From assembly GCA_963920765.1 (NCBI GenBank), contig OY987248.1:15038539-15102538 (forward strand): a stretch of 64,000 nucleotides of DNA. The letters are read 5' to 3'. Position numbers and translations under genes: made by a program. Below are positions 2,028-63,721 of the stretch, piece after piece. The notes under the pieces are model-generated. The model was not told the origin of the DNA, searched no databases, and saw only the letters and a program-made list of their open reading frames with translations. This DNA is from Ulota crispa. Lineage: Eukaryota > Streptophyta > Bryopsida > Orthotrichales > Orthotrichaceae. Every line of letters begins with the position of its first letter. Position 1 is the first letter of the stretch.

Positions 2028-3236
2028 AGGTTACAAGTATTATGTATTGGGAGTTCATGTATCTACCAAGCACATACCGGGAGTTCTTGTATCCACCAAA
2101 AATGTATTGGGAGTTCATGTACCGGGGTTCATGTATCTACCAAACATGTACCAGGAGTTCCTATATCTACCAAACATGTATCGGGAGTTCACATATCCAC
2201 CAAACATGTACTAGGAGTTCATGTATCTAATACTCCATATCTACCAAGCAAGGTTTTCTTTTGGGCAATTTAAGGCCAAATTGCCTCAAAAAAAAAAGGT
2301 GAGCGTTAAGCCTATTAAAAAAAAGGCAAGGGAATTTGCTTCAAAAAATGCTAGATTGCAATAATGAAAATTGTATGGTAGCCAAGACTTTCATAAAATT
2401 CTGATCAAATTAAAAATTGATGCCATCATTTAAAAATTATTTGAGGTGTTGCCTAATCCAATTCCATGCAATAATTAAAATAATACCAATATTTTTTTGG
2501 ATATTTTCAAAAAAATACCAATGAATATATTTTGCCTACAAAAAAATCCCATGATGCTGCAAAAATCCATGCATAGGAGCCATCTTCAACTCCAACCAAA
2601 ATAGAGATAGAGCCCGCAAGCTACAAATCATTTTCACAAAATGCCACAGAAGCATTGGTCAGAAAACAAACAAGAAAAACCCTGGGAGACACTGAGAACT
2701 ACAGCGCGTTGACATCGATGCCGACGACCAAGTCTGACTCCACACTCCGCAGCATATTTGACTGCGTTGACCCCCTCTCCCACCACACACACAACCCTAA
2801 AATACAAACTATAGACAAATGAAAAAGACACAGAAACAAGTAGCGGCGCATCGCAACCGTGCATTGTCGGAACTAAGCATCTGCTTTCAAGTTTCAACGC
2901 ACTTCATCTCCTTTCTTCAAAAGTTGCACAGCTGCTCACAGCTCCGGTCACATTCGATCGAAGCTACTCATCTTGCACTTCACTAGCTTGGCTTTTCAAG
3001 TCACCAAGCGCCACAACTGCGCCCATTCCAGTCTACTTCTGTGGATTCATGGCGTGCTCAACAACTCCGTATAAACAATAGCCATTCTCCTCACAATTCC
3101 CAAGACACACCGTCGTATTAGTCCCAGATCAATCAGCTCTACCAGTGATAAAGCATGTGACAGTGCCAGTGACCAGTGTTCGGGAGAAATTTTAGCTTCA
3201 CAGGCTGAAATCCGGCATTTCCCAGTTTCAACAACC
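2028..3236 (+). repeat. Duplicated globin upstream region, copy A (orphan promoter)
   Basis: This segment matches 11496-12131, the region upstream of the phytoglobin gene. It shares the 30-bp repeats, the stretch GACACTGAGAACT, the two TTGAC-containing blocks, AACCCTAAAATACAAAC, and the block ending in a TATAAA box (3070-3075, matching 11979-11984). Copy A carries about 420 bp of extra sequence between 2240 and 2660. Similarity stops near 3236, before any globin exon, so copy A has promoter and leader sequence but no globin gene. Next to it is an unrelated reading frame on the other strand. Confidence 0.85.
2049..2240. repeat. Tandem repeat, unit about 30 bp, about 6 copies
   Basis: Units read GGGAGTTCATGTATCTACC plus AAacatgtacc with scattered changes. 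One unit is cut short near 2129. Two units of the same repeat occur at 11515-11560, upstream of the globin gene, so the array belongs to the duplicated segment. Frames stay open through it only because the unit is a multiple of three. Confidence 0.85.
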
Positions 3237-3323
3237 AGATGAGATGAAAGTATTGTGACAAAATGAAATGACAGTACAATTTTATTTGAGAAGTTGTAAC
3301 TTCTGTACAATCAAGTTCACAAG

Positions 3324-3758
3324 TTAGTACAGAACAACCAAGATTAAAAAAGAATAGTAAGTGGCTATGCATAACATTCTCATCTGCATGGTACGTCGCT
3401 GCGCATTGTAAGTGGTGACATATCTATCATACTCCAACATCGCCGAGAGGACTCCGAATGCCGTGAGAACGGGGACCACCATTGCCGAAGCGAAATTTGC
3501 AGGATCGACGACAGGACCGGTGCAGCTGTCACAACGAAGTCGAACTAAAGAGGTGAAGTAGCTGTTGCCCGTGATGGAAGTAGTCTTGTTTAAGCACTTC
3601 GGATGAATGAATAAGTCCGACGTCGTAGGCTCCGGATCGGACGCGCACGAGGTGGCCATCATCATGAAAAGAAGCACCGGCGTCGTTGTAGCGACCACCA
3701 TGAAAAAAAGGAGCGCCGGCAGTACTGAAACAACAACCGCCATGCGCACTCCCGCCAT
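3324..3758 (-). CDS. Hypothetical small secreted or membrane protein (144 aa)
   Basis: I do not recognise this protein. It starts MAGVRMAVVV and is strongly hydrophobic to about residue 38, like a signal peptide or signal anchor. A middle part carries four cysteines (about residues 39, 55, 77 and 80) and an N-glycosylation-type NKT. A second hydrophobic segment spans about residues 89-107, followed by a basic tail. The DNA is more GC-rich than its surroundings. A telo-box (AAACCCTA on the minus strand, 3780-3787) lies just upstream of the ATG, as in many plant 5' leaders. The last 20 or so residues look less convincing and could be intron read-through. Its 3' end converges on the orphan globin promoter copy. 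It could be a real gene, a first exon only, or chance. Confidence 0.38.
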   Translation of the reverse strand: MAGVRMAVVVSVLPALLFFMVVATTTPVLLFMMMATSCASDPEPTTSDLFIHPKCLNKTTSITGNSYFTSLVRLRCDSCTGPVVDPANFASAMVVPVLTAFGVLSAMLEYDRYVTTYNAQRRTMQMRMLCIATYYSFLILVVLY

Positions 3759-5345: not shown

Positions 5346-5756
5346 ATGGCGGAATTCTTCACGTCAAGCGTGTGTGAGATCTCCAGCGTAGAGAGAGATA
5401 CTGACAGAGCAGAGACGCTGTAATATACTACAGTGAGCCTGACCTAATGTGAACCGGATGAAACGGGATGAATGAATAACTAATCCCTAATGCACGCACT
5501 TGGAAACCCTGTAGGAAAAGATGGAGAAGAACTAAGTAAGCTTAACTTATTACTGCTGCTTGTTTATACGGCTTGATTGACCGCTTGGAAGCCGAGAGCG
5601 GAGGAAAATCCGAAAATTTTGCTTGTTAAGCTTTCCTAAAGGTTTTTCAATGTTGCAGAATTTGAAATGAGAGTTACAGCGGCTGGTTTCTAAAGAGTAT
5701 TCAAGGTTTTTACTCGTTAGAAAGCACTTTTTTGAAAGTTAACCCTTAAGCCTTAA

Positions 5757-6599
5757 CCCCTAAACGTTTGAGCGTGCTGCTGCAACCAGTACAATACGGG
5801 GTATTTTTCTTGTATTTGGAATGGATCCACACCTTTACTACATTTGAGACCAACAAAGAAGTTGGAGAATAGATCAATGCGGTTCTAGTGAGTTACTTGA
5901 GATTCCAAACTATTTTTTTTTATTGGTAGTAAATGACAATTATACGTCGGCATATATACTATGCCCTATGGACTTTTAACCTTTAAATGACCAACCAACC
6001 ATAGTACATAGTGTATACGGTGCTGTATAATTGGCATTTGCTACCAAAAAAAAGTTTTCATTTGGGATCTTGACTAGCTCTCTAGAACTGCATTGATCTA
6101 TTTTCTAACTTCTTTGTTGATCTCAAATGTAGTTAAGGTGTGGATGCATTCCAAACAAAAAACAAATATATCAAATTATACTGTGTACTATGGTTGGTTG
6201 GTCATTTAAGGGTTAAGGGTTAAATGTCTGAGCAGCCCAAAGTAAGCAATATAGTACAATGTATTTTTCTTGTATTTGGAATGCATCCACATTTTTACTA
6301 CATTTGAGAATTGAGATCAACAAAGAAGTTAGAATATAGATCAATGATAACGACATATTCATTAAATTGGGGACACCAGATTCCCAAGTTGTACTCACTT
6401 TACACCTAGAGCTTAATTTAAGGTGGTCACCTTAAACTCTCAAAATCAAAGTTCTCTTCCCAAATTTACAAATATGGCGTTTGATGTTCTAGTGAGGTAG
6501 TCAACATCCCAAGTTAAAACTTCTTGTTGGTAGCAAATGCCAGTTATACAGCAGCATGCCGTACATACTATGTCCTATGGTTGTTTGGTCATTTAAGGG
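5757..6599. mobile_element. Two tandem TTAA-flanked element copies, palindromic inside
   Basis: A block starting CCCCTAAACG after TTAA (5753-5756) ends in TCATTTAAGGG before TTAA (6213-6216). A second, directly repeated block runs from about 6224 to 6599 and also ends TCATTTAAGGG before TTAA (6600-6603). Both contain the segment starting TATTTTTCTTGTATTTGGAA. The first is internally palindromic around 5990. The second copy carries a further insertion (6349-6481). Confidence 0.6.
6349..6481. mobile_element. 133-bp MITE of the 4-bp-target family, TSD TGAT
   Basis: The ends AACGACATATTC and its inverted partner AATATGGCGTT are flanked by TGAT on both sides (6345-6348 and 6482-6485). The neighbouring direct repeat at about 5872-5890 shows the same locus without the insertion (ATCAATGCGGTTCTAGTGAG against ATCAATGAT, element, TGATGTTCTAGTGAG). 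Confidence 0.8.
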
Positions 6600-7670
6600 T
6601 TAAGCTTAAGGCAAAAATAAAGAATTGCGGCGAGAGCTCCGCCAAGGTTGCTCCATCTTGTACCGCAACTCCAAAAGCATGCATGTAAAAAATGAAAAGG
6701 TGATGGGTTACTGCACTTCCCGAGCCAAACTCCAAGGCTAAAAAATTAATACTTTTGCTTTAACCCTTATGCGCCAGCACAGGTAAAAAACAACGTCCTA
6801 TATAAGCGCATGTTTTATGACTAGGCGTTCTAAATGATTGTAAATCAATTATGATGTGACTAATAAATGACTGACATTGAAATAGTTGTTCTTTAGTCAT
6901 TCTTTTGAATGGTTCATCTGAAACTCTCCACAGAATCGAATTCTTCTAAATTCATAAGTACATTCTCATCCATAAGCGGATGAGGTTGTTGTTGTGTCTG
7001 ACATCTTTTAGCTGGGGAAGTGATTTAGTCGTATGCCCAAAACATGTGTTTATAGTATTACTAAGGTGTTATTAATGAACTACTAAAGTGTTACAACTTT
7101 CATTCCACATCATTTTCATGCAGAAAAACATCTTTCACGGTTTTCTCTCAAAATTTTGGGATTGCTCACTAGCATTATTTTTAGATCTTTCTTGTTCTTT
7201 TGAGATTATGTGAACGCACACTATTGCAGCAGTCATTTTTTAGTTGTTTAGCATGTTTTGTGGTACTACTAGTTTACTACTAGGATATGACTTCTATAAT
7301 TAAATTGGTTTTGAGTAAGTAGGTTAATGAAGTTGTAAGGGGAATAAGCAACATAGGGTTGGATGTCACTAGGTACTAGTTCTATACTTACTAATGTGCA
7401 ACTAATCCATAACTAATAAATGACTTTCATGTGATTTTTATGTGCAACTAATTGAAGACTAATAAATGACTTCTATATGGTTTTGCCTCTCCTACTGAGT
7501 TAATATTGTTCTTTCTATTGCATTAATTTAATGATTAGGATTTGATCTTATTTCTTGGGTCATGGGTGAGGAACAAAGAATATTTTAGGATTTGGGATTT
7601 AGGGGTTTAGGGTTTAATGGGAGTTAAAGAAAAGCAGTCATAGATAATATGTCACCACATCAGTTAAATT

Positions 7671-7836
7671 ACTACAAAATGACTACAAAATGACTACAAA
7701 ATGACTACATAATGATTACATAATGCCTACATAATGACTACATAATGCCTATATAATGACTATATAATGACTATATAATGACTACACAATGACTACACAA
7801 TGACTACACAATGACTACATAATGACTATAAAACGA
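7671..7836 (+). repeat. Tandem repeat, 10-11 bp unit (AATGACTACAT)
   Basis: Roughly fifteen consecutive copies of AATGACTACAA/AATGACTACAT with point variants. Related single copies are spread over the surrounding 3 kb. Confidence 0.9.
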
Positions 7837-8316
7837 CTATGGAAGAACCCAATTATAATCATGCATTTGTTGTCACTTAGAAGTTCATGGGTTATTTTTT
7901 TTCTACTATTATTATTAGAATATAACTTGAGCAAATTATTTTGGGATTTACGGTGCAATTTCTTTTTGGGCCTACATATTGTGGTTTTCAAAACAAGAAA
8001 AGTCTTGCTCTACCTATTCCAATTCCAACCAACTATTTGAAATGAGTATAGTTTGGTTAGCTCATTAAATTGTATGTTTAAGAGTTTAGTTGTATTTTAG
8101 TTTTACAAGAGTTGTAGTTAGGTCACTATAATCTTCTTCAAGCATGTGCTAGTTGTACATTAGTTGTATTTGAGTCATACATTCATTACATTATTATTAT
8201 GAATGTTATTGTTATTATTATTACTGTTATTATTGTTATTATGATTATTATCATAATAATCAACAATTTAAAAGCTATAATTAAAGCACTTTGAAAGATT
8301 AAAAAATAATGTTTTA

Positions 8317-8334
8317 TATTTATTTATTTATTTA

Positions 8335-17242: not shown

Positions 17243-18248
17243 GGTTGAATATGTGAATGCAACTTGTTTCTTATTACATCACCCCAATTATTAGGTCATC
17301 TTGTTTGTTGTTCTCCACCGCCCACAAAAGGGGAGTCACAACTTCTTCATGAAGTTCTCTTACTGGCACCTATTTCCACTCTACAACTTTTTGTTTTTCA
17401 TAGAAGTTTCATTTTTGGAGGTGTGACTACCCCTATTGGCATAGGAACTCAAGATTTTGAGCCCTCCAAGAGCCATCTCCACAGTCTCTAAAAGGGCCTT
17501 AAAATATGTACCTACTACAACAAACAAATCACTAATCCCATATTTTTGCTCACCCTTTGAATTAAATGCAATCATGAAAATTATATTATTCTGTTATAAG
17601 TCCTTCTTACTTGTCGTACCGACAAATTGATGCATGAAACATTTTCACGACTGAACATAGTTTAAGAAAATGGACCCATGCTAAAAGAATATTCAACTTT
17701 GAAAGTAAATAACATTCTCAAGGGATCAATTGTCATAATCATTGGAGAAATTAATCTTCACTTGTAATTACAAAAGTGCTTCCTCATACACAACATTGTG
17801 CATGAGTCAAGCATTTACCCAATGATCAAGTATTGCATTGAGGAGCACCAAAACGTTTTCAATGGCCGTTGCACATCAAAAGGCAACATACAATTGGCCA
17901 CATTAAAATTTAAAGCATAGGTTATAGAAACTTATTTGATAAACTCCACAATCAGACTTTTCGTATTGTACTAAGTACGATTAAGAGGAAGTGATGAAAA
18001 ACAAATTAAAAGTCTAATTTCTACTCGAGAATTTATTCTTCTCACATGTTGGTTTGATGATTTGTTTTATCTTTTTTGCTTTGCTGAATAAATCGAATCC
18101 CTTATTCATTCTTCACAAAAACATGCTCACACCTGAATAAACTTTTTTTTTGCTTTGCTGAATAAATCGATTCTTGAGCTTGTTCTAACAAAGCTGCCAC
18201 AGCATTAGTGTTGCGAAAGCTGCACCTTGCGCCCTTTCATTACTATGC
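17243..18248. other. AT-rich stretch without recognised gene
   Basis: No protein-like frame or complete inverted-repeat element seen. The segment CTTTGCTGAATAAATCGA occurs twice (about 18080 and 18153). Confidence 0.35.
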
Positions 18249-19554
18249 TTTCTAAGGGGGAAACTACAAAATGAGTAACAAAAAGGAAAGAAATTACAAT
18301 TTAGGTAATGGTTTGAAAGTAATTACAATTTGAGTAACAAAATTCAAATACTTTAAAAGATACGGCAAGGGAATTGATATATGTATCATCTCTTTTCAAC
18401 TATTTTACCACTTTTACTATGTATGACCAATATTTGCAATATTAATCCCTAAATGCCCAAGGCACTCAATTTGGGTGTTTGCAAAACTTTGAAGACAAAT
18501 AAAATCTTATCAAATCACTATTTTTGGTATTTTCTTTTGAACACAAGTTTGTTTTGAAGTTTATTTTTAGTATCAAAAATCTGATTTTGCAAATGAGTGT
18601 CAATGATTTTCCTATTCAAGATTTTGTACAAGGGTGTCCACTGCAATCTTGAGTTTTCTAGTGTTGGAAGATTTTGAAAATGGGCCTCAAATACACTAGA
18701 GCTTGGAGAAAAATCCCCATTAGAAGTCCATTTTAAAAAAATACAGGAGTAGATTTTGAAAACCATAAATTGGTTGAGGTTAAACATGTAATGACCTTAA
18801 ACCTCATATTTTTTTGATGACTAAATTTTTAAATTTGACATGCAAAATGAGGATTAGAAGACTTCAAGTTACTTTTCCAGTTTTAACACCCTCATGTTCA
18901 AATATTATAATCTTTCAAACTATAAGTGATATTGCTAAGTTTTCTTTTTCCATGTAATCTCTAACATGTCAAGTTTAAATTTGTATGGTTACAATTTTTA
19001 AAAAATTGAAGAGATTTATGAAAAGGTTGGTTGATTGTTCACTTTCTTGAAAATGCCAAGAAGTTCAGAAAGGCCTTGGGCATTTAGGGGTTAAAGTAGG
19101 TGTGGAATAAGGAAAAAACATCACTAATTGGAAAATATAGCTTGACATAGACATTGCAGCTTTAATTTTGTATATACGCTCTTGATCTTGCTCACTGTAT
19201 CAATTAAAAGATCTAAATTAAACCAAGCATAATTTAGATTTTTTAATTGATACTATGAGTATGATCCAAAGTTGAAAAATAAATAAAGTAGCAATGTCTA
19301 TGTCAAGCTATATTTTCAAATTAGTGATGTTTTTTCCTTATTCCACACCTACTTTAATATTGCAAATATTGGCCATATATAGTAGGTATGCTAGAATAAT
19401 TGAACTGAAAGGGATGGTACATATATCAATTCCCTTGCCAAACCTCTTGAAGTATTTGGATTTTGTTACCCAAATTATAATTACTTTCAAATTGTTACCC
19501 AAATTGTAATTTCATTCCTTTATGTTACTCATTTTGTAATTTCCCCTTTCTAAA
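18249..19554. mobile_element. Long foldback element interrupted by a TTAA element
   Basis: The left arm (18249-18445, resuming at 19095-19212) pairs with the right arm (19213-19554). The outer ends are CTAAGGGGGAAACTAC and its counterpart at 19530-19554. The apex lies near 19215 in a palindromic TTAAAAGATCTAAATTA region. Without the insertion the hairpin would be about 657 bp. The left arm is split exactly at a TTAA that is present once in the right arm (19353-19356). Confidence 0.85.
18446..19090. mobile_element. TTAA-target element, 645 bp (piggyBac-like), nested
   Basis: Terminal inverted repeats CCCTAAATGCCCAAGGC are flanked by TTAA at 18442-18445 and 19091-19094. The intact opposite arm of the host foldback shows the unoccupied site with a single TTAA. 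It is the same length as, and has similar interior sequence to, 41728-42372 (both contain TATTCAAGATTTTGT then CAAGGGTGTCCA). It has no coding capacity. Confidence 0.88.
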
Positions 19555-19703
19555 GACACCAAAAAAGAATGAAGGAGAATAGTGAAATATTATAATAAAG
19601 GACAAAGATACTAAAACAAAGTTTTTTTCCCACTTTTTTGTATCCTTTTCTTTTTCAAACAAAAAATATTTCTTATTATTACAAATTAAACGATTCTAAA
19701 TAT

Positions 19704-35781: not shown

Positions 35782-36712
35782 CCCCTAAAGGACTGAGCCA
35801 TTTTTTAAGTGAAAATCACTCAAAACTGCCACTTTTGGGGGGGTCAATAAGAAGGTAACTTTTTTTGAAAATTTGGGAAATCCAACTGTAGGATCTTGCC
35901 CTAGACTAGATTAGGTACTTATGGAAAAAAATCACGTCATTTTGGATGGACATGAGTGAGATATTTACATCTAAAGTGAAAATAAAAGTTTTTTTTCATG
36001 CTACTGCAAAATTTCCAAAGCCTTTGACCATTCTTACATGAAAATAATTGCTCTACGCAACTTTGCACTTTATTTTTCCCATGTAGGAGATCAAGTTAGC
36101 TATGTGTGGGAGAATTTTCAAATCAATTGGAACTATACAACACATAGGAAAAATCAATAAGTAAAAAGAAGTAGATAATGAGTCAAATCACTAAATTGTT
36201 AAGAATTTAATTATTAAAATGAAAAATGCAAATCCCAACAGTCATAATGTTGTGATAAACAATCTACATCCTTTGGTTTTGTTTTTTTTTTCAAAATAAT
36301 GAAAATTGAGTAAAATAAAGGACTTCAAAGTTTATTTTAGAGTAGAGAATCCATAACTGCCCGCAAACAAAAACTCCTCATAACTTTCATGTCATTGATT
36401 GAAATTGAATGATTCAAAGCTGCTCACCTATAAAGAAATCTAAAGAACCAATTTCAGTTTTTAATTTTTAAAAAAATTAATTTTTTAAGAAGTTTCTGGG
36501 CTGCCCGGGCGGGCAATCCTTCCTTGCTTTTCAGATTTTCATGCATAACTTCTTCAATAATTGTCGGAATGAGGAAAAAATTAGATGCCCACGTAGATTT
36601 TTGAATTCCCCACCTTCAATAAAAGTTTCAGAAAATCACACAAAGTAGCTTATCCAAAGGTACATGCCCAAACTCCCACATGTCCCCCGAAGGGACAACA
36701 GTCCTTTAGGGG
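35782..36712. mobile_element. TTAA-target element, 931 bp
   Basis: The ends CCCCTAAAGGACT and AGTCCTTTAGGGG are perfect 13-bp inverted repeats flanked by TTAA (35778-35781 and 36713-36716). A palindrome TGTCCCCCGAAGGGACA lies just inside the right end only. It is the same family as 58619-59539 and 62761-63670, in opposite orientation. Confidence 0.87.
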
Positions 36713-38553: not shown

Positions 38554-39508
38554 CCCCTAAAGACCCAATGGGTGTTTTCACCATAAACTGCCAAAATTTG
38601 TGTTTTTGCAATATGTTGAACTGAATTTTAAATTGCAAATTAATTTTGAAACTTCAACCATACAAAATTGTAGTAAAGTATTTTAGTATTGATTGAGAAA
38701 AAATTCAGCCCATTTGACCACACAGATTAAAATATTATAGCATTTAAAATTTATATAAAAGTTTTTTTGTCCCTACCCAAATGGGTCAGCAGATTTTGAG
38801 CCTCTTTGGAGTCAAATGTTTGGTCAGCATGAATTAAAGTTTTTTTTTCACTAATATCTAAATCTTGTTAGGTACACTCATGAAAATTTTCAAAAGCAAA
38901 TTATGAGTCCAGCTTATTCTAAATTGCCCTGCAATATAAGGAGGTCAAGTGAATTGGCAATACATTAGTCATTCTTTCATGATTTTTTGTGCACTAAGGA
39001 CATCTTTTATTTGAAATCTGAATGGCAAAAAGTTAGAGACAAACATTTGGGATGTTTCAAAAAAAAATTCAAGAGCTTTGGCTTTATAGATTGAAAGACA
39101 ATAGGCCCTAAAGTTAGAGGAAAATATTTTTCTTGAAACTGCCCGCACATAGTCAACAAAGTTTGACTCCCTTCAGAATGTGATGTGAGACCTCAATTTA
39201 TCTTCTTTTAAAAAAAAAATTGTACAACATGTCTTTCTAGTGACACACTCGCCAAATTTCAAAAGTTGATGAGAGTTTTAGCATAAGATTCTCAAAAAAT
39301 GCCCAAACTGCCTAAACTACCCAAATTCTTTTGGGTATAATAACTTTTGAATTGAGCATCCAATTGGGGAAAAAATTATACTCCCACTTAGGGGATAATT
39401 ATTTACACCATGTGTATCAATTATGAAAACATCCCATAAAATTTGACTCCATATGACCCTACCCAAGTTCTTAAGTGGCTGTTGAACGGAAATTTGGGCC
39501 TTCAAGGG
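38554..39508. mobile_element. TTAA-target element, 955 bp
   Basis: The ends CCCCTAAAGACCC and GGGCCTTCAAGGG are imperfect inverted repeats flanked by TTAA at 38550-38553 and 39509-39512. Confidence 0.75.
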
Positions 39509-39512
39509 TTAA

Positions 39513-40418
39513 CCCTTTAGAAACCCCCAAACCATATTTTGGTTCGGGAGAGTAGTTTTTGGCCTATATAGTAAAATTGCTCAACAATTTGGAAAATGAT
39601 CTTGAAGAACGCTTGTGATCACAAGAATTTTGCATCCAACCCAAAAAACAACAATAGAATCAGATATGGGAGTTGATAAATAATGGTGTTTATACATCAT
39701 GGCCTCAAAATACATATCCATATTTGGTCAAGACAGATCAAAGCAACAACACAATACATCAAACATCCAACAAGAATGCAACATTTCAGTAGTGCAATCT
39801 TAAAAAACTTCAAATTGCTCAAGGAATACACTTGTATTGTTTCTCTATACGGTAGTAGTACAATTGTAGTATTTGAGAATCCATTGAAATGATGCTATCA
39901 ATTTATTTAATTAAAAGTTCATCCTACATTAAAGGCCAATTCTTGATTTGTTTCACTGATAAGATTGTTTGTAACAATTATCAAATTTCTTGTAGAACTG
40001 TTTTAGGGTAGCAAAGAAAATGGGATTTTTAACCCTTTTTGTCTACTTAGCTACACCTTGCGATTGCTATTTTTGCCTATTTTGAGTGAAACTAATCTTG
40101 TTGAAAAGGTGGGAAACCTTGCTTTCTAGAAATGTAAGGCTCTTCTCACTCAAAGCTTGCATGAAGAGCTAACATTCAAAACCACACAAGCATAATAAAC
40201 TAGAGAGTTTTGATATACTATTCACTTAATCATTATAATATTTAACCTTCAACGATAGATCTAACTGAAATTTTGATGCATTGCAACAAACAAGGTGTCC
40301 TTCACATTTGTACAGTTGGATTATTTAAGTTGGGTCCATTTATGTTTCAAATGCACATCTAATCTTATTGCCCCGGTTTCAAGTAGATTTTGGAAAAATG
40401 TGTGTGGTCTTTAAAGGG
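39513..40418. mobile_element. TTAA-target element, 906 bp, abutting the previous one
   Basis: The ends CCCTTTAGAAACC and GGTCTTTAAAGGG are flanked by TTAA at 39509-39512, shared with the preceding element, and 40419-40422. Confidence 0.72.
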
Positions 40419-41727: not shown

Positions 41728-42372
41728 CCCCTCACCGCCCAAGGGGCCCAAATCGGGCCCTGCTGAATTTTATGCAAAGATACTTGACCTTTTTTTAATA
41801 TTTTTTTAGTGCTTATTATTATTTTTAAATTCTTATTGAAGTCTAGATTCAATATTAGGAGTCTGATCTTGAAAATGAACTAAAGTGATTTGTCTATTCA
41901 AGATTTTGTGCAAGGGTGTCCATTGCAAATCTTCACTTTCTAGTGTTGAAGGCTCTTGGAAATGAGTCTCAAATACACTAGAAATTGGAGAAAATACCAC
42001 ATTAAAAATTCAATTAAAAAAATTGTAGAATAGATTTTGAGAAGCCGTAAATTGATTGGGGTTATGCATGTTATACTTTACATACTTATATTTGTTTGGT
42101 ACCTTCAATTTTAGGTTTGAGATGCAAAAAGAGGATTGAAAGACTTCAAATCACTTTTGCAATTTTAGCACCCTCATGATCAAACATTATAATCTTTCAA
42201 TCCATGTATGATATTGTTGTGATTTCTTTTCCTATGTGACCTTTAACATGTCTATTTTGAATTTGTATAGTTGCGCTTCAGAGAAAATTGATAAGATTGA
42301 TTAAAATGCTAGCATTTTGTTCACTTTCAATTAAATTCTAAAATACTCAAAAGTACCATGGGCAGTGAGGGG
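41728..42372. mobile_element. TTAA-target element, 645 bp
   Basis: The ends CCCCTCACCGCCCAAGG and the complement of the right end, CCCCTCACTGCCCATGG, are flanked by TTAA (41724-41727 and 42373-42376). It shares its interior and exact length with 18446-19090. Confidence 0.87.
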
Positions 42373-42492: not shown

Positions 42493-43414
42493 CCCCTAAA
42501 GGACCATGACATTTATTTTGTCAAAAGACACTCAAAACTGCCACCTCTATGGCAAAGAGTAAAAAAGTTTGAAAATTGATCTTTTTGCATATCTAACCAT
42601 AGGATCTTGTACTAGACTACTATAAGAATGTGTCATACAAAATTCAAGAACTTTGACCGTATAGGTTGGAAGATTTATGCATTTAATAAGTAAAAAATAA
42701 CTTTTTTTGCGCCTTGCCTGACTAGATTATTTAACTTTGAACTATTTTAACTTAAAATTTTTGCACCACAAAGTTTGGAATTATATTTTTGCATGGTGGG
42801 AGGTTGAGTTGGTAATCTTGGGAAAACATAATAACAAAAAATAATTAATTTTCATTCTTTAAAAAAAACATTAGGAAGAAGAAGGTATGAGATTGAACAA
42901 AAGCTTAAATTGCTAATAACCCTACAATGGAATTGAAATGCAATGATCCCAATGGTGAGATTGTTCTAGAAAGCAAACTTCACCCTCTTCAACAATTTTT
43001 TTTGAATAAATGTTAAAATTGCATTCAAAAATGAAGTTTATAAGTTATTTTTCCAAGAAGATGCTTGAACTGCCCAAAAAACAAGGTTGTCCATAACTTT
43101 CTCATAACTAGTCCAAATGGAATGAATCAAAGCTTCAAATGTAGACAAAGATATAATCTATGAGAAAATTAAATTAAATTATTTTTTCAAGTTTGTATAA
43201 GATTTTTTTTGCTGCCCAGAGTCCCCAAGTTTGTGCTTATTTGGGCATAACTTTTGCTCCCTGGCATCAATTGGAATAAAATTTAGATGCCCATGCAGAT
43301 CTTTGAATTTCCTATCTTTAGTAAAAGTTTCAAAAATCATGCAAAGTAGTTTGGCCATAGATACATGCCCAAAATCCCATTTGTTCGTTGAACAGATAGT
43401 TGGTCCTTTAGGGG
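42493..43414. mobile_element. TTAA-target element, 922 bp
   Basis: The ends CCCCTAAAGGACC and GGTCCTTTAGGGG are perfect inverted repeats flanked by TTAA (42489-42492 and 43415-43418). It is an uninterrupted relative of 22666-24522 and supplies the empty site for 23210-24153. Confidence 0.87.
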
Positions 43415-48664: not shown

Positions 48665-50005
48665 TTAGCATAACCCCCAGAAGGAACACGAACTGAAGAA
48701 GTGAAAAATGCTCTTGGGTTTCTCCACTTCAGGCTCCGAAAAGGACGAGTCCTTCTTCGGGTCATCGTCGTCCTTGGAAGCCTTCACAGGTACTGGCGGC
48801 GTATTTTCAAGAGCCTTCTTCTCAGACTCTGGCGACTCGTTTCCAGCCTTGGGGGACACTCGGCCTGCCTTGGAAGAGCCTTTCGACACCTTCGGAGAAT
48901 CTTTTGGGGAATCCTTTCCTTTCGGAGAGCCCTTCTCCGCCTTTGGGGAATCCTTCCCCGTCTTCGGAGAGCCCTTGTCGCCCTTGGAGGATTTTCTGTC
49001 AGCAATAAAACCTTTCTTCTGCTGCACAGGCTTTGCATCGGGATCAGGAAGTGTGCTTAGAAAAGCAGTCAGCATTCGAACTACCTGCGGGAAGGTAGGT
49101 CTCACTTCAGGATCCTCGGCCCAACATGATTGCAAGATGAAGACAAGATCCTCGGGTAGAGTCTTGGAGATAGCCGGTCTTGTGCTCTTAAACGCGGCTG
49201 CGTACGCTGCCTGCAAATTGGACATCCCCTCAAAAGGCATCCGATTTGTCAGGAGCTCCCACAGCACAATTGCAAAACTGTACACGTCCACTTTGTGATT
49301 GTAGTGCTTCTTCTCGCCGTGCCGGAGAGTGACGGTGCTGTAAAGCTCGGGTGCCATCCACCTGTAAGTGCCTGTCTCGGCAGTCATCATTTCCGCAAGG
49401 GTTTCTTCTCTCGCGAGACCGAAGTCTACCAACTTCAGCGTTTTCTGATCTGCCGTCAATAGTAAGTTATCAGGCTTCAAATCGCGGTGAATGATACCAT
49501 TCCCGTGGAGGCAATCCATAGCCTGCGCAATGTCGAGGGCGAACTTCACGGAGCAGCGTAAGTTCAAGACATTTGGCCGCTGTGTGAGCATGTATTTCTT
49601 CAGGGATCGTCCCTCCATAAGCTCTGTGACAATGACCATCACAGGCTCCATACAAGCGCCGACAAACTTCACCAAATTCCGGTGTTGCACACGCGCTAGC
49701 ATCGAAACCTCGCGTGCAAACCCGGCTTCCAGCTTCGCGTGGTCATCTGGATTTTCGGTCGGCTGCAGAATTTTCACTGCTACCTTTTGGTCCAGATACT
49801 TCCCCTCGTATACCTTTCCGTGTGCACCTTCGCCGATTTTTGGTCCGACAAAAAGTAGCTTAGGATTGATCAAAAAGCGTTTTTCTAAGTAAAATCCATT
49901 CCCCTTACCGATATTCACAGTGTTGTTACCTCCCTGCCTACCTGTTCCCTCTCCTCCCCACCCCCATTCCGAGCCAGGATCCACCCTCGCCCCCGGAAAC
50001 ACCAT
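48665..50005 (-). CDS. Raf-like (HT1-related) protein kinase with SPK-rich tail
   Basis: A cytosolic-type Ser/Thr (dual-specificity-like) kinase of the plant Raf-like MAPKKK group C, 446 residues, coded without an intron. The catalytic domain spans about residues 50-318: glycine loop GEGAHGKVYEG (58-68), VAVK Lys78, helix-C Glu99, HRDLKPDN (173-180), DFG (194-196), and TGTYRWMAPE (211-220) as usual in plant Raf-like kinases. All catalytic residues are present, so it should be active. The stretch KIGEGAHGKVYEGKY and the region around MSNLQAAYAAAFK are characteristic of a C-group subfamily. The tail (about 325-446) is unusual: six SPK motifs at 346-386 in Lys/Ser-rich sequence, an acidic DDDD patch, and a hydrophobic end with two cysteines (440 and 446). 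Stops TAG, TGA and TGA precede the ATG in frame, so no longer start is possible in this exon. The pathway and substrates are not shown by the sequence. Confidence 0.95.
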   Translation of the reverse strand: MVFPGARVDPGSEWGWGGEGTGRQGGNNTVNIGKGNGFYLEKRFLINPKLLFVGPKIGEGAHGKVYEGKYLDQKVAVKILQPTENPDDHAKLEAGFAREVSMLARVQHRNLVKFVGACMEPVMVIVTELMEGRSLKKYMLTQRPNVLNLRCSVKFALDIAQAMDCLHGNGIIHRDLKPDNLLLTADQKTLKLVDFGLAREETLAEMMTAETGTYRWMAPELYSTVTLRHGEKKHYNHKVDVYSFAIVLWELLTNRMPFEGMSNLQAAYAAAFKSTRPAISKTLPEDLVFILQSCWAEDPEVRPTFPQVVRMLTAFLSTLPDPDAKPVQQKKGFIADRKSSKGDKGSPKTGKDSPKAEKGSPKGKDSPKDSPKVSKGSSKAGRVSPKAGNESPESEKKALENTPPVPVKASKDDDDPKKDSSFSEPEVEKPKSIFHFFSSCSFWGLC

Positions 50006-51700
50006 CCTTCATCACTACCGAGCACTGGAATCAACTAGGAGTTTCGCAATCACCTTTGACAGAAGAAAAAAAGGGGGAAAAACAGCTCTTCCAGCGTTCT
50101 TCGCAAAAAGACTTCAATCTACTATATTTTGAACCACATCTCCAACAAGAAACGCTTGATAAATAAATACACAGGTAAGCCAACGGATCCAAAGATGCTC
50201 TGTTGCGTACAATTGCCTGCAACACGCAATGCAAGCAAAGAGGCGGTCAATGCACATCAGAAGACTTTGTCCCCTCAGTTACTAAAATCGACTTACGTGA
50301 CATTCACGCAACTACGAAAACGTCCTACGCTAATTCAGCGACATGATTGCTAAAACCACAAGTGCATTTAAAAATACAAAAAAAAACCTCTTCTAATCTA
50401 ACCACCTATTATCCAGACTTTTCTGTGCAGCAGAGTTTGAATATACGACAGGTGTGCTACAACAAATAATAGTGCACGAATGCGCAAGATCTTCGTCTTA
50501 GAGAAGGTACTAAACAAGACACTAAGTGCGCAAAACCGACTAACACCATTACAACGCGAGAGTGAGTAGAAAATATCTCGAGAAAGCACGTCCGCTATTT
50601 CACTCACAAAATGCTCAAAACAGCTCAAAACTAAATAGCATCCAAAGAAACACTCACTTCTAAATGAAAATGTATCCAGAATTAAGGCTCTCTAAGTATA
50701 CCCGAGGCAACGCAAACACGCATGATCTACACAACACAAACAAGTAAACAAAAAATAAAAAACGAAAACCGCAAGAACAAACGCGCTTCTACACAATCTC
50801 CCTCGCAAGGAGCTAACAACACTAATCACACCTTCGCAACACGAGGCAAGGCGAACACGCATGATCTACAAAACACAAACAAGTATTCAAAAATAAAATA
50901 AACGAAAATCGCAATAATAAACGTGCTTCTACACACAATTTCCCTCGTAAGGAGCTAACAACACTACTCACACCTTCGCAAAAGAGATTCTGCAATCCTA
51001 ATAACTACATTGCACTAACAGCTTATCACAAATCTCCGAAAGTAGAAAAAGGCCTACTAACCGGCAAGGACAGCATGCACGACGAGAAAAATCGAACTCC
51101 GGGGACTACTTACCTACACCATGGCGCTCAAAGCGCCCTACAAACGACTCCGTCAGATTTTTGCGACGCGATAACAACCGTGCTTATTAGATACAATCTC
51201 CCTCGCAAGGAGCTAACAACACTAATCACACCTTCGCGATAGAGATTCTGCAAAAACTACATCGTACTAACAGCTGTATCGCAAATCTCCGAAAGTAGAA
51301 AAAGGCCTGGTAACCGGCAAGGGTCCGGGACCACTTACTTACACCATAGCGCTCAAAGCGCCCTACAAACGACTCCGTCAGATTTTTGCGACGCGATAAC
51401 AAACGTGCTTATACACAATCTTCCTCGCAAGGAGCTAACAACACTAATCATACCTTCGCAAAAGAGATTCTGCAAAAACTATATCGTACTAACAGCTTAT
51501 CACAAATCTCCGAAAGTAGGAGGAGGCCCTAAGGACAGCATGCACGACGAGAAAATCGAACTCCGGAGACTACTTACCTACACCGTGGCGCTCAAAGCGC
51601 CCTACAAACGACGCCGTCAGATTTTTGCGACGCAATGCCGTTGCAGACGAACCCTGGCTGACTCGCCATAGCCAGGACTTGAGACGTGTTTCTGCTCAAT
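50006..51700 (-). promoter_or_regulatory. Probable kinase 5' leader with intron and repeated donors
   Basis: On the minus strand a good acceptor (TGTTGCAG|G, exon beginning at 50216) lies about 210 bases before the ATG. Further upstream, three tandem copies of a segment (51572-51640, 51333-51400 and 51108-51175) each end in a donor-like sequence, GTGTAG|GTAAGT or GTGTAA|GTAAGT. This fits a leader intron of about 0.9-1.35 kb with alternative first-exon ends. It is an inference from splice-site-like sequence only. Confidence 0.4.
50780..51640. repeat. Tandem duplications of about 225-240 bp in the kinase leader
   Basis: AATCTCCCTCGCAAGGAGCT then AACAACACTAATCACACC recurs at about 50797, 50938 (variant), 51189 and 51419. 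GCGCTCAAAGCGCCCTACAA then ACGACTCCGTCAGA recurs at about 51127, 51350 and 51589. The copies are close in sequence, so the duplications are fairly recent. Confidence 0.88.
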
Positions 51701-52079
51701 GGCGAGACATAGGGCAAGGGGAAAGTGAGTGATCTGGAGTGATGGTGGTTCTGAGGGGAGTGTTGGTGGTGGTGCATGCGAGGGACACGGCTAAGTTAAG
51801 CGGGAGGGACGAGGGAGGGGAGGGTCTGCGAAACAGGGGAGTGTGGGAGTGTCCGCGTTCCGGCGGTCCCGCCCGGAAATGGCAAAATGCAAAAGCTGTG
51901 CGAGAGTCGTCACTGCTGCTCCACCTCGCCCTCCTGCAGCAGAGGCAACCGTGTTTTCGACACGGTGCTCTGTGACAGGGACGGGTGGACGAACGGCAGC
52001 ATGGAGGGATGGACGAATGGATGAACAGAGGCGATTTTAGATGAATAAATGTTCGATGGATGAAAATGAGCTCGAATGA

Positions 52080-53525
52080 ATGGATGGAAGGATGCGTGAA
52101 GTCGATGCATGAGAGGATGTATGGGCGGATGAATGGAGGATGTGTAGGAGATGAATGGAGGATGTGTAGGAGATGAATGGAGGATGAATAGTGAGATGCA
52201 TGGGAGGATGAATGGGGGGATACATGGGCTGATGAATGGAGGATGAATAGTGAGATGCATGGGAGGATGAATGGGGGGATACATGGGCTGATGAATGGAG
52301 GGATGCATGGGCTGATGCATGGGGGTGCATGGGGGGGTGCGCATGGGGGGGTGCCCATGGGGGGGTGCGCATGGGAGGTGCGCATGGGGGGTGCGCATGG
52401 GGGGGTGCGCATGGGGGGTGCGCATGGGGGGTGCGCATGGGGGGTGCGCATGGGGGGTGCGCATGGGGGGTGCGCCCATGGGGGTGTGCCCATGGGGGGG
52501 TGTGCCCATGGGGGGGTGCGCATGGGGGGGTGTGCCCATGGGGGGGTGCCCATGGGGGGTGCCCATGGGGGGGTGCCCATGGGGGGTGCCCATGGGGGTG
52601 CGCATGGGGGTGCGCATGGGGGGTGCGCATGGGGGGTGCGCATGGGGGTGCGCATGGGGGGTGCGCATGGGGGGGTGTGCCCATGGGGGGGTGCCCATGG
52701 GGGGGTGCCCATGGGGGGTGCCCATGGGGGGTGCGCATGGGGGGTGCGCATGGGGGGGTGTGCCCATGGGGGGGTGCCCATGGGGGGTGCCCATGGGGGG
52801 GTGCCCATGGGGGGTGCCCATGGGGGGTGCGCATGGGGGTGCGCATGGGGGGTGCGCATGGGGGTGCGCATGGGGGGTGCGCATGGGGGTGCGCATGGGG
52901 GGTGCGCATGGGGGGGTGTGCCCATGGGGGGGTGCCCATGGGGGGTGCCCATGGGGGGTGCCCATGGGGGGTGCCCATGGGGGGGTGCGCATGGGGGGGT
53001 GTGCCCATGGGGGGGTGCCCATGGGGGGGTGCCCATGGGGGGGTGCCCATGGGGGGTGCCCATGGGGGGTGCTCATGGGGGTGCGCATGGGGGGTGCGCA
53101 TGGGGGTGCGCATGGGGGGGTGCGCATGGGGGTGCGCATGGGGGGTGCGCATGGGGGGGTGTGCCCATGGGGGGGTGCCCATGGGGGGGTGCCCATGGGG
53201 GGTGCCCATGGGGGGTGCCCATGGGGGGTGCGCATGGGGGGTGCGCATGGGGGGTGCGCATGGGGGGGTGCGCATGGGGGGGTGCGCATGGGGGGGTGCG
53301 CATGGGGGGGTGCGCATGGGGGGGTGCGCATGGGGGGGTGCGCATGGGGGGTGCGCATGGGGGGGTGCATGGGGGGGTGCATGGGTGGATGCATGGGTGG
53401 ATGCATGGGTGGATGCATGGGTGGATGCATGGGTGGATGCATGGGTGGATGGATGGGAGATACATGGGTGGATGGATGGGAGATACATGGGTGGATGGAT
53501 GGGAGATACATGGGTGGATGAATGA
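52080..53525. repeat. G-rich compound minisatellite, core unit 12-15 bp
   Basis: The core (about 52318-53385) has some eighty copies of ATGGGGG(G)(G)GTGCGC or ATGGGGG(G)(G)GTGCCC. The two unit types are arranged in blocks. The left border has GGATGAATGGGGGG-type units, including a 56-bp direct repeat. The right border has six GGTGGATGCATG units and three ~24-bp GGATGGGAGATACATG units. Runs of 5-7 G every 12-15 bases on the plus strand could form G-quadruplexes. Very long frames on both strands exist only because the unit rarely contains a stop. Confidence 0.97.
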
Positions 53526-54339
53526 AGGGATGAATGACGTCCTTTTCTATGTGATTGCTGATGAATAAGCTTATATGGGTAGCATCCAAGAATTTTGAAA
53601 TGGTATCTTTGATGGACGAGAGAGAATAACGCGCTTTGGGCACATAAGGGAGGCCTCTTTAATTTACGTATTCTGAAAATATATGCATACATTAACTCTT
53701 AACAATGTGCACAAATTAAGCCCATTGGTTCCCTATAAGAAAGTTTGCACTTGGCATATGCCATATGGTACCCACTATGCAACTTCTATGCCAGCATGGT
53801 CATCATGTTTTTTAATATGGCTACATTTGAATTCAACTTCTCTATTCTTAACCTTCCAAAAAATGAGCATTATAAATTGCTAACTAACCTCTTACTTGAG
53901 GAGAAGTTGCACTACAAACAATTTAATGCTTTGTCACAATTAATATGATATCAAATATGTGCACATAATAAATAGATTTGTTAATTTATGCCAAAACACA
54001 ATTTAACTTTCATGATATGCACAAATTAGGCTAATTTGTTAATTTATGAAAAAAACGTAAATTAATGCGGTATGAAAAATGTATACTACCCTAAGTTGAA
54101 AATACCAACAATATTCTTAATTATGTAGTTGTGGAATATTTATCAAAAAAACATACTATACGTAAAGCTAAATTTTCTAATGCAAGGTCAACTTGTTATT
54201 ATATTGTTGAGTTTTGATCTAAAAACTTGTGAGGACATTTTTTTGGCATAGACTTTATTGTTTTTTTTATAGAGGACAAGTCTTGTAAACCCATTTACCA
54301 AGGTAAATGAATAGTGGTGAGATTTTAAGTGGGGACTTA
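53526..54339. other. AT-rich stretch without recognised gene
   Basis: No protein-like frame. Short repeats of TTTGTTAATTTATG and CACAAATTA occur near 53709 and 53970-54060. Confidence 0.35.
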
Positions 54340-56090: not shown

Positions 56091-58618
56091 GGGGCATGTA
56101 GATGAAAAATATAATAGACAAGGACACACTTTCAAAATAATTTGTAATTTTTTGTATTTTTTTTGATTTGGACATTGGTTGATTTAGAGACATCACATTA
56201 AATATTAATTAACTTTCAAATTTTTTGAAGATCTCTCCAAAAATTATCATCTTCTTTACAAAAATTTATTTATTTAAGTTTGATTTGGAGAGGCCTTTAA
56301 GTTTTATTAATTAATTTCATAACTTGGCACTTTCACAAAACTTTCAAGTTAATGAATAGTCTCAGGTTCTAGAAATAGGAAATATGTCACTTGTGGCAGC
56401 TTTTTATTTTATGTATTATATTCTTTTGGGATACAAGAACAAAACCATAAACAAAACAATGGCCGTATATTAAATATTAGTTCACGAGTACCATTATCAT
56501 GGATGAAAGGAGGGTTAGAAAAACAACAGTTCTAAACAATTGGAATTGGCACTTTTCGAAAGAGTGCTTATGTAATTTTTTACAAATATCAAGAGTTTTA
56601 GAAGGTGGCTTTTATATTCAAGTTAATTTAAATATAATTCGATGTTGTTTATAATGTTGATAGCACTGAAGTAATTATTATGATACATATTTGAAATTTA
56701 TTATTTTGGCAACACAAGAAATAGAAATTTTAAAATTGCACATTTCAGAAATTTAATAATTTTAAATTGCCTATATTGCAAAGTGTCAAGTCAGTCCAAT
56801 GTAACACATTTTTTTTCTAGCAAACAAGAGCCAAACTTGCGAAAAATTGATAGAATCACACCAATCTATGTTGATCCCTCTATTTATTATCAAATGCCCT
56901 CTTGACAATTGGAATCTGGCAAACAAAAGAAATGCCTTGGATGCACAAGTTGCAAGGGATAAAAAATATTGTTTGAATAAACAATTATGAAATTAGAACA
57001 TTTTGTAACAATCTCATCACAACTAAATCAACTTTATATTTTTGAAACAAACACAAGATATGCATAAAGTAAGGTTGATTTTAAGGAGATACAAATTGTG
57101 TTATAGTACTAAAAGATGCCAAAGGATGTATTGTAAAAATTAATGAACATTTTCTTGATTCCAACAAATGCACTAAATTCTAAAAAAATCTTCACAACTT
57201 CACAAGCATCTTGTAATGCAAATGATTATCCATGTCCTTGATATCACCTCACCTAGCAACAAGTCTCATAACAAGTTGCCAATAATGATGCTTGTAGTTC
57301 TTTTCATCAATGTCAATCTTATGTTTCTCCAAATAGAACAATGAAATTTTTGTACATTTCTATGTGCATTACAAAAGGTTGTTGCACAATTTACTTATCT
57401 TTATTAATTTTATAGTTGTTCTAATACATAAAGCACTTCATCTTCCTTTGTCCTTGCCATGATTTGAGCACCTGATTCATTCCATATCCTTCATAGTTAT
57501 CAATTTGAACTTAAAGTACAAGTGGCAATATTGTTTTGTTGAACAAATGATTAAATCCCAACACAATTATACTCAATAGTCTTCAAGAGTAAATGTGCAT
57601 ACATAGATATTAGTAACATCTATCATTGCTTATAGCAATTGTGTCATTGTCAAATGTAAAATGATCCCAATTGACAAAAACCCACTGAGTTGGATACATT
57701 TAAAAATGCACCAAAAATTTCATAATTTGTAACTAGGTTAAAAGAAATTTGTGTTCTCAAAATGCATAAGTAGAGGCCTTCTAATGACTTCAAACTTTCT
57801 ACAATCAAAATTTTGGGGCGTTTTGAAATTACAATAATTATATAGTGAAGTTCTTTATTGTTTAATTGTTACCTTTAGAAATGCCTGATAGATCCATTTT
57901 TTTAATGTTTGTTGTAGCAAAAATTGAATGATGTCTATTGAGTTCAAATATAGATAGTTTTTATATTCAAACTTGACAAGTAACAAAAAAGGTGTTTGGT
58001 CATCTTATTGATGGTTAATAACCCATTGCAAATCTTGAAATATCTAAAGTACTCAAAACCTCTATGATGTATATATAGTCACCATTTTTGAAACACCTTC
58101 AAGTAAATGGTGCCATCCTATAATGAATCAACAACAACAGGGTTTTTTTTTTGGTAAATTTTTGCCAAAATCTTACCTATAATTGTCATTGGCTCTCAAT
58201 ACACTAAAAAATTTCAAAAAAAAAGTGGATGAATTCACCAAGTCCCTCCTTCCTCAAACACCAAATTTGCTATTTTTTGGATGAAAGTAGCTTATATTAG
58301 CAAATGTATTGGATGAACAAGCACACCTAGTTCATTCTTTCCAATTATAGGTAATTTTTCCTTACCTTTATGAGGTCCAGGGTGCAGGTTGCTCTACCTT
58401 GACAAATACAAAAAAAAAAAAAAACCCTGAACAACAATTATGAGTTTTCCTTTCTGGCAATTGAAACTTCTTACAGTAAAATAGACAAATTTTTCTTCTT
58501 TGGGCTCATTTGTAATTGAATTGCTCATTATACAAATTCCAAGCGTCAGTTGTCGTATAAAAGAGTGTAGAAATTTGAAACTGCTTGAAATTGAAGCTTA
58601 CATAATTGTTGCCTTTAG
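56091..58618. other. AT-rich stretch without recognised gene
   Basis: No intact frame. 57130-57500 read on the minus strand looks vaguely like decayed coding sequence, but it is broken by several stops and I recognise no family. Confidence 0.35.
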
Positions 58619-59539
58619 CCCCTAAAGGCCCAGCTGTCCCTCGGGGGACAGTTGAGATTCCGGGCATGTATCTATAGCTAATATAGTTTTTGTAATTCTT
58701 TTAAACTTTTATTGAAGGTGGGGAATTCCAAGACCTACCCGGCAATCTTTTTTTTTGTCATTCCAATATTTGACAAAGAAGTTATGCAAGAATTTATGCT
58801 GCCCAAAGGAGGGAGGGCAATCCGGGCAGCCCAAAAACTTCTTAAAAACTGGTACTTTCTAAAAATAGAAATCTGATGGTTCTTTAGATTTTTTATATGT
58901 GGGAAGTTTTGAATTATTAAACTTCAATCAATGAGATGAAAGTTATGAGATGTTTTAGTTTGTAAGCAGTTATGGATTCTCTACTCTAAAATAAACTTTG
59001 AAGTCCTTTATTTTCCACAATTTTTAATATTTTGGAAAAAAAACTAAACCTAAGGAAGTAGATTGTTTATCACAACATTATAACCGTTGGGATTTTTTTT
59101 CTTTTTAATAATTAAATTCTTAACACTTTAGTGATTTGACTCATTCTTTACTTTTTACTTACTATTTTCCCCCATGTGTTGTATAGTTCCAATTGATTTG
59201 AAAATTCTCCCACACATACCTAACTTGGTTTGCTACATGGAAAAAATAAACCTCAACTTTGTGTAGAGTAATTTTTTTCATGTAAGTGTGGATAAAGGCT
59301 TCTAAATTTTTTTGGACAGCACAAAAAGAAATTGTTTGTTTCACTTTAGATATAAATGTCTCCCTCCTCTCCATCTAGAATGACCTGATTTTTTCTCACA
59401 AATACCTCTTCTAGTATAAGGCAAGATCTTATGGTTGGATTTGCAAAAACAAACTTTATTTCCTACTTTTCTATTCATTTTTCCCAAGTGACAGTTAACA
59501 ATGATTTTCACTAGAGAAAACTGCTTGGGCCTTTAGGGG
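58619..59539. mobile_element. TTAA-family element, 921 bp, with TTAG on both flanks
   Basis: The ends CCCCTAAAGGCCC and GGGCCTTTAGGGG are perfect inverted repeats flanked by TTAG at 58615-58618 and 59540-59543. A palindrome CTGTCCCTCGGGGGACAG lies just inside the left end. The interior matches 35782-36712 in reverse. Confidence 0.85.
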
Positions 59540-59543
59540 TTAG

Positions 59544-62504: not shown

Positions 62505-63721
62505 GAGCAGCCACACCCTTATTTTGTCAAATTTAATGCGTTAAGGAATTACATCTACTTTTGAAAAGCTCTCAATTTTTTTGTCCCCCACCCTTATTCA
62601 TCAAATATGCCTCATAATAGTTAGTTGATCAATCATCAAGTGGAATATAGAATAAAGCTCATTAAAGTTAGGATGAATAGTAATTTAATGGTTCACTTGC
62701 TTGAAATTGGTATTGAGTGTCATGAGAACACTTTGAGGGGCTTGGAGCATTTCTCATTAACCCCTAAAGGACTATTGTCCCTTTGAGGGACAGGTGGGAG
62801 TTTGGGCATATGCCTTTGGATAAGCTACTTTGTGTGATTTTCTGAAACTTTTATTGAAGGTGAGGAATTCAAAAATCTACGCGTGCATCTAATTTTTTCC
62901 TCATCCCAACAAATATTGAAGAAGTTACGCAAGAATTTCTGAAAAGTAGGGGAGGACTGCCCGCCTGGGCAACCCAAAAACTTCTTTAAATTTTTTTTTT
63001 TTTTTTTTAATTTAAATTTGAAATTGGAAGCTTTGAATCATTCAATTCCAATCAATGAGATCAAAGTTATGAGGAGTTTTTGTTTGCGAGCAGTTATGGA
63101 TTCTCTACTCTAAAATAAACTTTGAAGTCCTTTATTTTACTCAATTTTCATTATATTGGAAAAGAAATTAAACAAAAGGAAGTAAATTGTTTATCACAAT
63201 ATTTTGACCATTAGGATTTGTATTTTTTGTTTTAATAATTAAATTCTTAACAATTTAGTGATTTGACTCATTCTCTACTTCTTTTTTACTTATTGATTTT
63301 TCCCATGTGTTGTGTAGTTCCAATTGATTTGAAAATTCTCCGACACATAGCTAACTTGATCTCCTACATGGGAAAAATAAAGAGCAAAGTTGCGTAGAGC
63401 AATTATTTTCATGTAAGAATGGTCAAAGGCTTTTAAAACTTTGGAGCAACATGAAAAAAACTTTTCTTTTCACTTGAGATGTAAATATCTCATTCATGTC
63501 CAGCTTGAATGACCTAAATTTTTTTCCACAAGTACCTAATCTAGTCTAGGGCAAGATCCTGTGGTTGGATTTCCCAAATTTTTTAAAAAAAATTACCTTC
63601 TTATTGACCCCCCAAAAGTGACAATTTTGAGTGATTTTCACTAAAAAAAAATAGCTCAATCCTTTAGGGGTTAAAGTATAGTGATTGTTAAACCTCCTTT
63701 GCATGTAAAGGTGTGATGTTC
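62505..63721. mobile_element. GRGCATC-type element split by a TTAA element
   Basis: The left end GAGCAGCCACACCC follows the TTA shared with the previous element. The right end GGTGTGATGTTC precedes TTA (63722-63724). The left half matches 37331-37640. Removing 62761-63670 and one TTAA gives an element of about 300 bp, the length of that relative. Confidence 0.65.
62761..63670. mobile_element. TTAA-target element, 910 bp, nested
   Basis: The ends CCCCTAAAGGAC and TCCTTTAGGGG are flanked by TTAA (62757-62760 and 63671-63674). A palindrome TGTCCCTTTGAGGGACA lies just inside the left end. The interior is collinear with 58619-59539 and inverted relative to 35782-36712. Confidence 0.87.

Follow-up and report, generated by a model that had tools for sequence, protein, structure and literature searches.

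The locus raises the question of which transposon superfamily placed a 645 bp element into one arm of a foldback, at positions 18446-19090 (+ strand) of the window, i.e., the whole 64,000-nucleotide stretch of DNA analysed, which lies on contig C7 of a 274.8 Mb assembly. The first indication lies in the element's own borders: its TIRs are TCCCTAAATGCCCAAGGC and CCCCTAAATGCCCAAGGC, summarized as (T/C)CCCTAAATGCCC, the left end of this copy reads TCCC, and TTAA stands on both sides (18442-18445 and 19091-19094). These two TTAAs are the left and right target-site duplicates. The foldback pairs 18248-18395 with 19408-19555, 18395-18445 with 19354-19404, and 19091-19167 with 19281-19357, so that the element splits one arm and the opposite arm (19281-19404, - strand, with the empty site at 19341-19370) is undisturbed. 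When reverse-complemented, that arm reads AATATTTGCAATATTAAAGTAGGTGTGGAA, in which both flanks are joined at one TTAA. A sequence-only reading of the window had proposed both the copy inside one arm and a TTAA duplication readable in place, and the TIRs, flanks, and arm pairing confirm this; what the foldback documents is an empty site and not an excision event. The element is not alone: a first look at the genome gave 4,575 candidates, and among the 40 best other matches 39 span nearly the whole element with 91-93% identity and one is partial (78%). As developed below, this element and the other short elements of the window are very probably non-autonomous members of the piggyBac superfamily, served by the transposase of longer relatives in the same genome.

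Several further short elements, all given on the + strand, lie in the window. A sister of the focal element (645 bp, 41728-42372; TIR CCCCTCAC(C/T)GCCC) is 75% identical to it over 540 bp and has TTAA on both sides. Six others measure 906-955 bp: a 931 bp element of the CCCCTAAAGGACY family (35782-36712), a 955 bp element (38554-39508), a 906 bp element with TIR CCCTTTARARACC (39513-40418), a 922 bp element with exact CCCCTAAAGGACC at both ends and TTAA on both sides (42493-43414), a 921 bp element with CCCCTAAAGGCCC ends (58619-59539), and a 910 bp element of the same family as the last (62761-63670). A complex of CCYTTAAATGACC-ended pieces with TTAA flanks spans 5980-6599 (a piece at 5980-6212 plus an end at 6599). 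A pairing scan, which took only flanks at most one mismatch from TTAA, recovered nine distinct elements when 5980-6212 and 5980-6599 are counted as one; eight of these are flanked by TTAA/TTAA and one by TTAG/TTAG. Lone ends were found by the same scan at 7605, 24153, and 28320, and TTAACCCCTAAA at 5753 is without a partner. The sequence-only reading had counted at least ten elements, which is about right. The window contains 12 copies of the end motif TTAACCCNTAAA, whereas 100 shuffles gave a mean of 0.13 and a maximum of 2; a looser form of the 13-mer, allowing up to three mismatches, occurs 19 times against 10.3 expected and is uninformative. The TTAG-flanked element (58615-59543 with its flanks) was apparently inserted into a variant target. 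Back-to-back elements on one common TTAA occur at 39509-39512 in the window and at two other loci (L014:2414-2417 and L061:7247-7250, the latter with TCAA), and it seems that a TTAA next to an older copy can serve as the target of a new one.

The same ends are very abundant across the genome. The exact 13-mer CCCCTAAAGGACC occurs 4,753 + 4,844 = 9,597 times, while the reversed pattern occurs 3 times. Ends bearing TAA (TAACCCCTAAAGGACC) number 4,226 + 4,253 = 8,479, and ends bearing the full TTAA (TTAACCCCTAAAGGACC) number 4,072 + 4,082 = 8,154, i.e., the full TTAA precedes 8,154 of the 9,597 exact copies. The outer T is thus present in 96% of TAA-bearing ends, which speaks for TTAA and against TA as the target. 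A scan that placed no condition on the flanks, covering the window plus L001-L028 less four near-duplicates (24 loci), gave TTAA/TTAA for 27 of 32 pairs, TTAG/TTAG for one, and damaged or mis-paired flanks for four; the 27 of 32 leans upward because the C1 loci were picked from listed ends that carried TTAA or TAA, and because an insertion in L017 enters the count two times. In that locus, one element recurs in opposite orientation with unchanged flanks (516-1435 and 7400-8319), about 6.9 kb apart, as an inverted duplication. Flanks, genome counts, and empty site thus agree on a TTAA target-site duplication as in piggyBac, and the genome-wide departure from TTAA that would have spoken against the sequence-only reading was not seen. 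Short TIRs with a CCC start, mostly CCCY, are a further point of agreement.

A transposase of the corresponding type is present in quantity. A profile search with PF13843 (DDE_Tnp_1_7) over contigs C1 to C11 returned at least 120 matches (116 were scored of 528 candidates; best E 1.3e-73), and the same profile found no match in 14 control genomes. Stops lie inside 110 of the 120 listed matches; some of these stops may reflect introns. For pieces of L059-L062 and L064, PF13843 was the sole Pfam family at an E threshold of 0.001, and the nearest solved relatives were piggyBat (PDB 9c0f; E 2.6e-24 with L062) and cabbage-looper piggyBac (PDB 6x67). L062 and L064, when aligned to 6x67, keep aspartates matching D268, D346, D447, and D450, which we take to be the catalytic sites of cabbage-looper piggyBac and which agree with the chain numbering shown. 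Two catalytic aspartates have been lost in L030. In L060, the profile match extends across three open frames (profile positions 1-25, weakly, at E 0.12; 30-166; and 166-349), which suggests that this transposase gene is split by introns. A proline-rich frame upstream of the transposase is common to L059 (2425-2772) and L061 (2419-3051), at 47% identity over 64 residues (E 7e-13); a Pfam search of it gave no credible family, and it is possibly a second gene or a first exon of these piggyBacs. Directly after the piggyBac transposase of L031 lies a long simple repeat (2870-3706), read as (IHTY)n or (CMYV)n.

To connect the short elements to these transposases, 32 of them (with some overlap and duplication) were set against 36 transposase loci: 30 PF13843 loci with 1.5 kb flanks, and six 10 kb stretches of which two contain loci already among the 30. 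The window TIR was not found within 1.5 kb of the 30 transposase matches when up to three mismatches in 17 were allowed, nor did a TTAA-bounded TIR search of the same 30 loci and flanks find any. Four of the 30 loci (L045, L046, L054, and L058) nevertheless had sequence in common with short elements, each with 11 or 12 of the 32, and this sequence lay at comparable positions downstream of the transposase. When the further 3' sequence was followed, all four were found to end, as predicted, in the family tip adjoining TTAA (CCCCTAAAAGACC, CCCCTAAAGGATT, CCCCTAAAGGACC, and CCCCTAAAGGACC, respectively), with flanks that are all different. These tips lie at 1.63-1.76 kb, just beyond the 1.5 kb reach of the search; the tips of L029, L034, L038, and L063 are nearer to the transposase but have different sequences. 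Between 13 and 18 short elements align to the linked loci, the best of them starting at their first base and extending for about 450-535 bp (73-80% identity). Among those shown are the window elements starting at 35782 (whose homology to the 3' tips of L046 and L054 covers the first ~360 bp), 58619 (last ~360 bp homologous to those of L045 and L054), and 62761 (last ~350 bp homologous to that of L058). In the frame of the PF13843 match, the first three catalytic aspartates are kept in all four loci and the fourth in three (it is replaced in L046); stops lie inside the match in all four.

This link concerns one end of the ~920 bp family. Comparing the ends of the transposase-bearing copy with those of the family, the 3' end matches in four of four loci, and the 5' end was sought at two of them, where about 4.5 kb upstream of L046 and L058 held no short-element sequence and no TTAA[CT][CT]C start for the CCCCTAAAGGACC-type parent. 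No clear link to the short elements emerged for 26 of the 30 loci with their 1.5 kb flanks (L031 gave one weak match of 129 bp). L061 and L064 also match short elements, mainly as separate copies lying alongside, and the right end of L064 (7533, CCCCTAAAGGCCC) has 593 bp in common with one short element. A left "end" in L064 (1521) was probably a chance occurrence. The sequence-only reading had called for a search for the transposase partner of the 13-bp-ended elements and for its classification; that partner, for the ~920 bp family and through its 3' end, is of the PF13843 family rather than a PIF, hAT, Mutator, or mariner transposase, and the piggyBac-like reading is accordingly supported.

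Three other explanations have to be weighed against this evidence. The one that survives best, improbable as we judge it, is that the short elements are piggyBac-like in their ends only, having come to lie beside transposases by insertion at an older TTAA and being mobilized otherwise. Such placement does happen, to judge from the back-to-back elements at a common TTAA (window 39509-39512, L014, and, with TCAA, L061) and from one short element that sits in a TTAA inside the end of L059. Such an insertion fits poorly, however, with L045, L046, L054, and L058, at which the match to the short element is limited to roughly its initial 450-535 bp and which agree in the distance (1.63-1.76 kb) and orientation of the tip after the transposase; homology between these loci, moreover, reaches the tip in five of six pairs, with L045-L046 stopping about 155 bp short. 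Kolobok and Sola3 transposons also use TTAA, and so would explain target size and sequence equally well. This second alternative is more improbable still, since the linked loci carry a transposase matching PF13843, related copies of which align with solved piggyBac chains, and the consulted portions of two reports give CCCT-type end motifs for piggyBac (PMC10813416, PMC12732532). Finally, a Tc1/mariner-type element that targets TA and whose ends start with ACCCC, for which TTAA would be a mere T-TA-A preference, fits the window's empty site just as well (TTAA being palindromic, TA-A...T-TA reads alike), but it is the least probable of the three, given that 8,154 of 8,479 ends retain the outer T, contrary to a TA duplication, that the window element with TTAG on both sides shows a 4-bp direct repeat, and that the linked transposase is PF13843.

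Further support for piggyBac comes from longer copies whose ends could be defined. L029 (5,019 bp) and L038 (5,018 bp), two copies from a lineage other than that of the linked loci, are 90.5% identical throughout, from CCCCTCATYGCC to GGCAATGAAGGG, and unrelated outside; their homology begins and ends at TTAA sites with differing flanks, the left flank of L038 being TTCA, one base off TTAA. L060 has the ends CCCTTGCACGTCC and CCCTTGCATGACC adjoining TTAA, 7.5 kb apart, with the transposase between them. L059, L061, and L063 have a common right end, CAACCAYGGTCSYTAAAGG(G/A), adjoining TTAA (TCAA in L061). With up to two mismatches, this right-end pattern occurs 148 + 131 times in the genome (279), and the reversed pattern 0 times. 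Of the 279 places, 100 were listed; at four of these, one of which had served to build the pattern, a listed PF13843 match stands 1.5-2.4 kb upstream on the same strand. In 2,000 random placements, the number of such places averaged 0.06 and never exceeded 3. Nowhere else among these 100 places does the pattern lie within 7 kb of a listed match. A profile of the same right end, when run on the 30 loci, reached 8 mismatches at best, against 6 for the reversed-sequence control, and it pointed to AAGGGTTAA ends in L029, L034, and L038. Candidate CCC-type ends adjoining TTAA were also seen in the 3' flanks behind L030, L033, and L036. In L059, an element of about 900 bp (721-1640) lies in a TTAA within the piggyBac 5' terminal repeat and splits that end. 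The window element at 39513-40418 is 87% identical to the element inserted in the end of L059 and 80% identical to one beside L063.

The focal 645 bp family itself has no sequence in common with the transposase loci beyond the TIR. Nevertheless, it can be tied to piggyBac by its TTAA target, its TIR, and its sister at 41728-42372, whose TIR CCCCTCACYGCCC resembles the CCCCTCATYGCC of the complete 5.0 kb piggyBac in L029 and L038. We therefore infer that the transposase for the focal family comes from a piggyBac lineage whose ends are of the CCCCTCATYGCC type. The mechanism would then be as follows: a piggyBac transposase encoded by the longer relatives would recognize the ~13-bp inverted ends of the short elements, which would be mobilized in trans, and insertion into TTAA would leave TTAA on each side. 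Cut-and-paste transposition is the established piggyBac chemistry, and we assume the same for the elements described here.

The elements resemble the known piggyBac superfamily (cabbage-looper piggyBac, PDB 6x67/6x68; piggyBat, PDB 9c0f) in the PF13843 transposase, the aligned aspartates, the TTAA target, and a short CCCY TIR. They differ from the textbook piggyBac in the L060 transposase match over three open frames, as if spliced, and in a plant-like host. The elements with both ends defined are also longer here (about 5.0-7.5 kb) than the intact beetle elements, given as 2.07-3.47 kb in the consulted part of PMC12732532. Short non-coding copies associated with piggyBac-type transposons, as coral MITEs (PMC2872659) and Daphnia Pokey MITEs (PMC4912750), offer a parallel, although, going by the portions of those two reports consulted, the present case differs in its several abundant families and unrelated host.

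The telomeric repeat of the assembly bears on the host. A TTTAGGG array occupies the last 2.7 kb of C1 (all 100 listed of 1,290 matches); this is the plant-type telomere repeat, and we infer that the host is a land plant. PiggyBac is in use as a seamless gene-delivery tool and has been described mainly from animals, fungi, and protists. The sequence-only reading had held that piggyBac is not established in land plants, and this was partly right. The superfamily is already recorded for plants, thinly, in that repeat tables carry land-plant entries: as far as the relevant parts of these sources go, PiggyBac is listed in all groups surveyed, land plants included (PMC4438587), with 1,230 masked fragments in the fern Ceratopteris (PMC6890710) and 1 fragment in Stipa (PMC8319324). 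The consulted text of PMC12732532 calls piggyBac occasional in plant genomes, with red algae as an example, and that of three other papers mentions plants in passing (PMC10140906, PMC10813416, PMC3902484). The land-plant tables, in the parts consulted, give masking counts or a table entry (PMC6890710, PMC8319324, PMC4438587), whereas the present analysis connects ends and target with a transposase. A literature search found no title or abstract on native piggyBac miniature elements in plants, most subscription journals being beyond its reach. What is new is therefore a very abundant piggyBac in an unexpected host, and not the presence of the superfamily in plants as such.

Transposase-bearing piggyBacs together with thousands of matching short copies in a plant-like genome would offer native plant ends and transposases for study, and piggyBac in plants would move from a line in a repeat table to a demonstrated major component. 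The manner of its entry into plants, by old inheritance or by transfer, would become testable. We would tentatively go one step further, to a picture that we regard as plausible but somewhat short of likely: a land plant with long-resident, diversified piggyBac lineages, comprising hundreds of elements of 5-7.5 kb with an intron-split transposase, several of the lineages having their own TIR variant and miniature family of thousands, some possibly still mobile, and with the upstream frame of L059 and L061 as a second, plant-specific piggyBac gene or exon.

Two features of the window lie outside the short elements. A GC-rich tandem array with 13-14-bp steps (51696-53692) contains long open frames on both strands and is probably a satellite rather than genes. 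On the minus strand, 48665-50005 encodes a protein kinase of 446 residues in one open frame.
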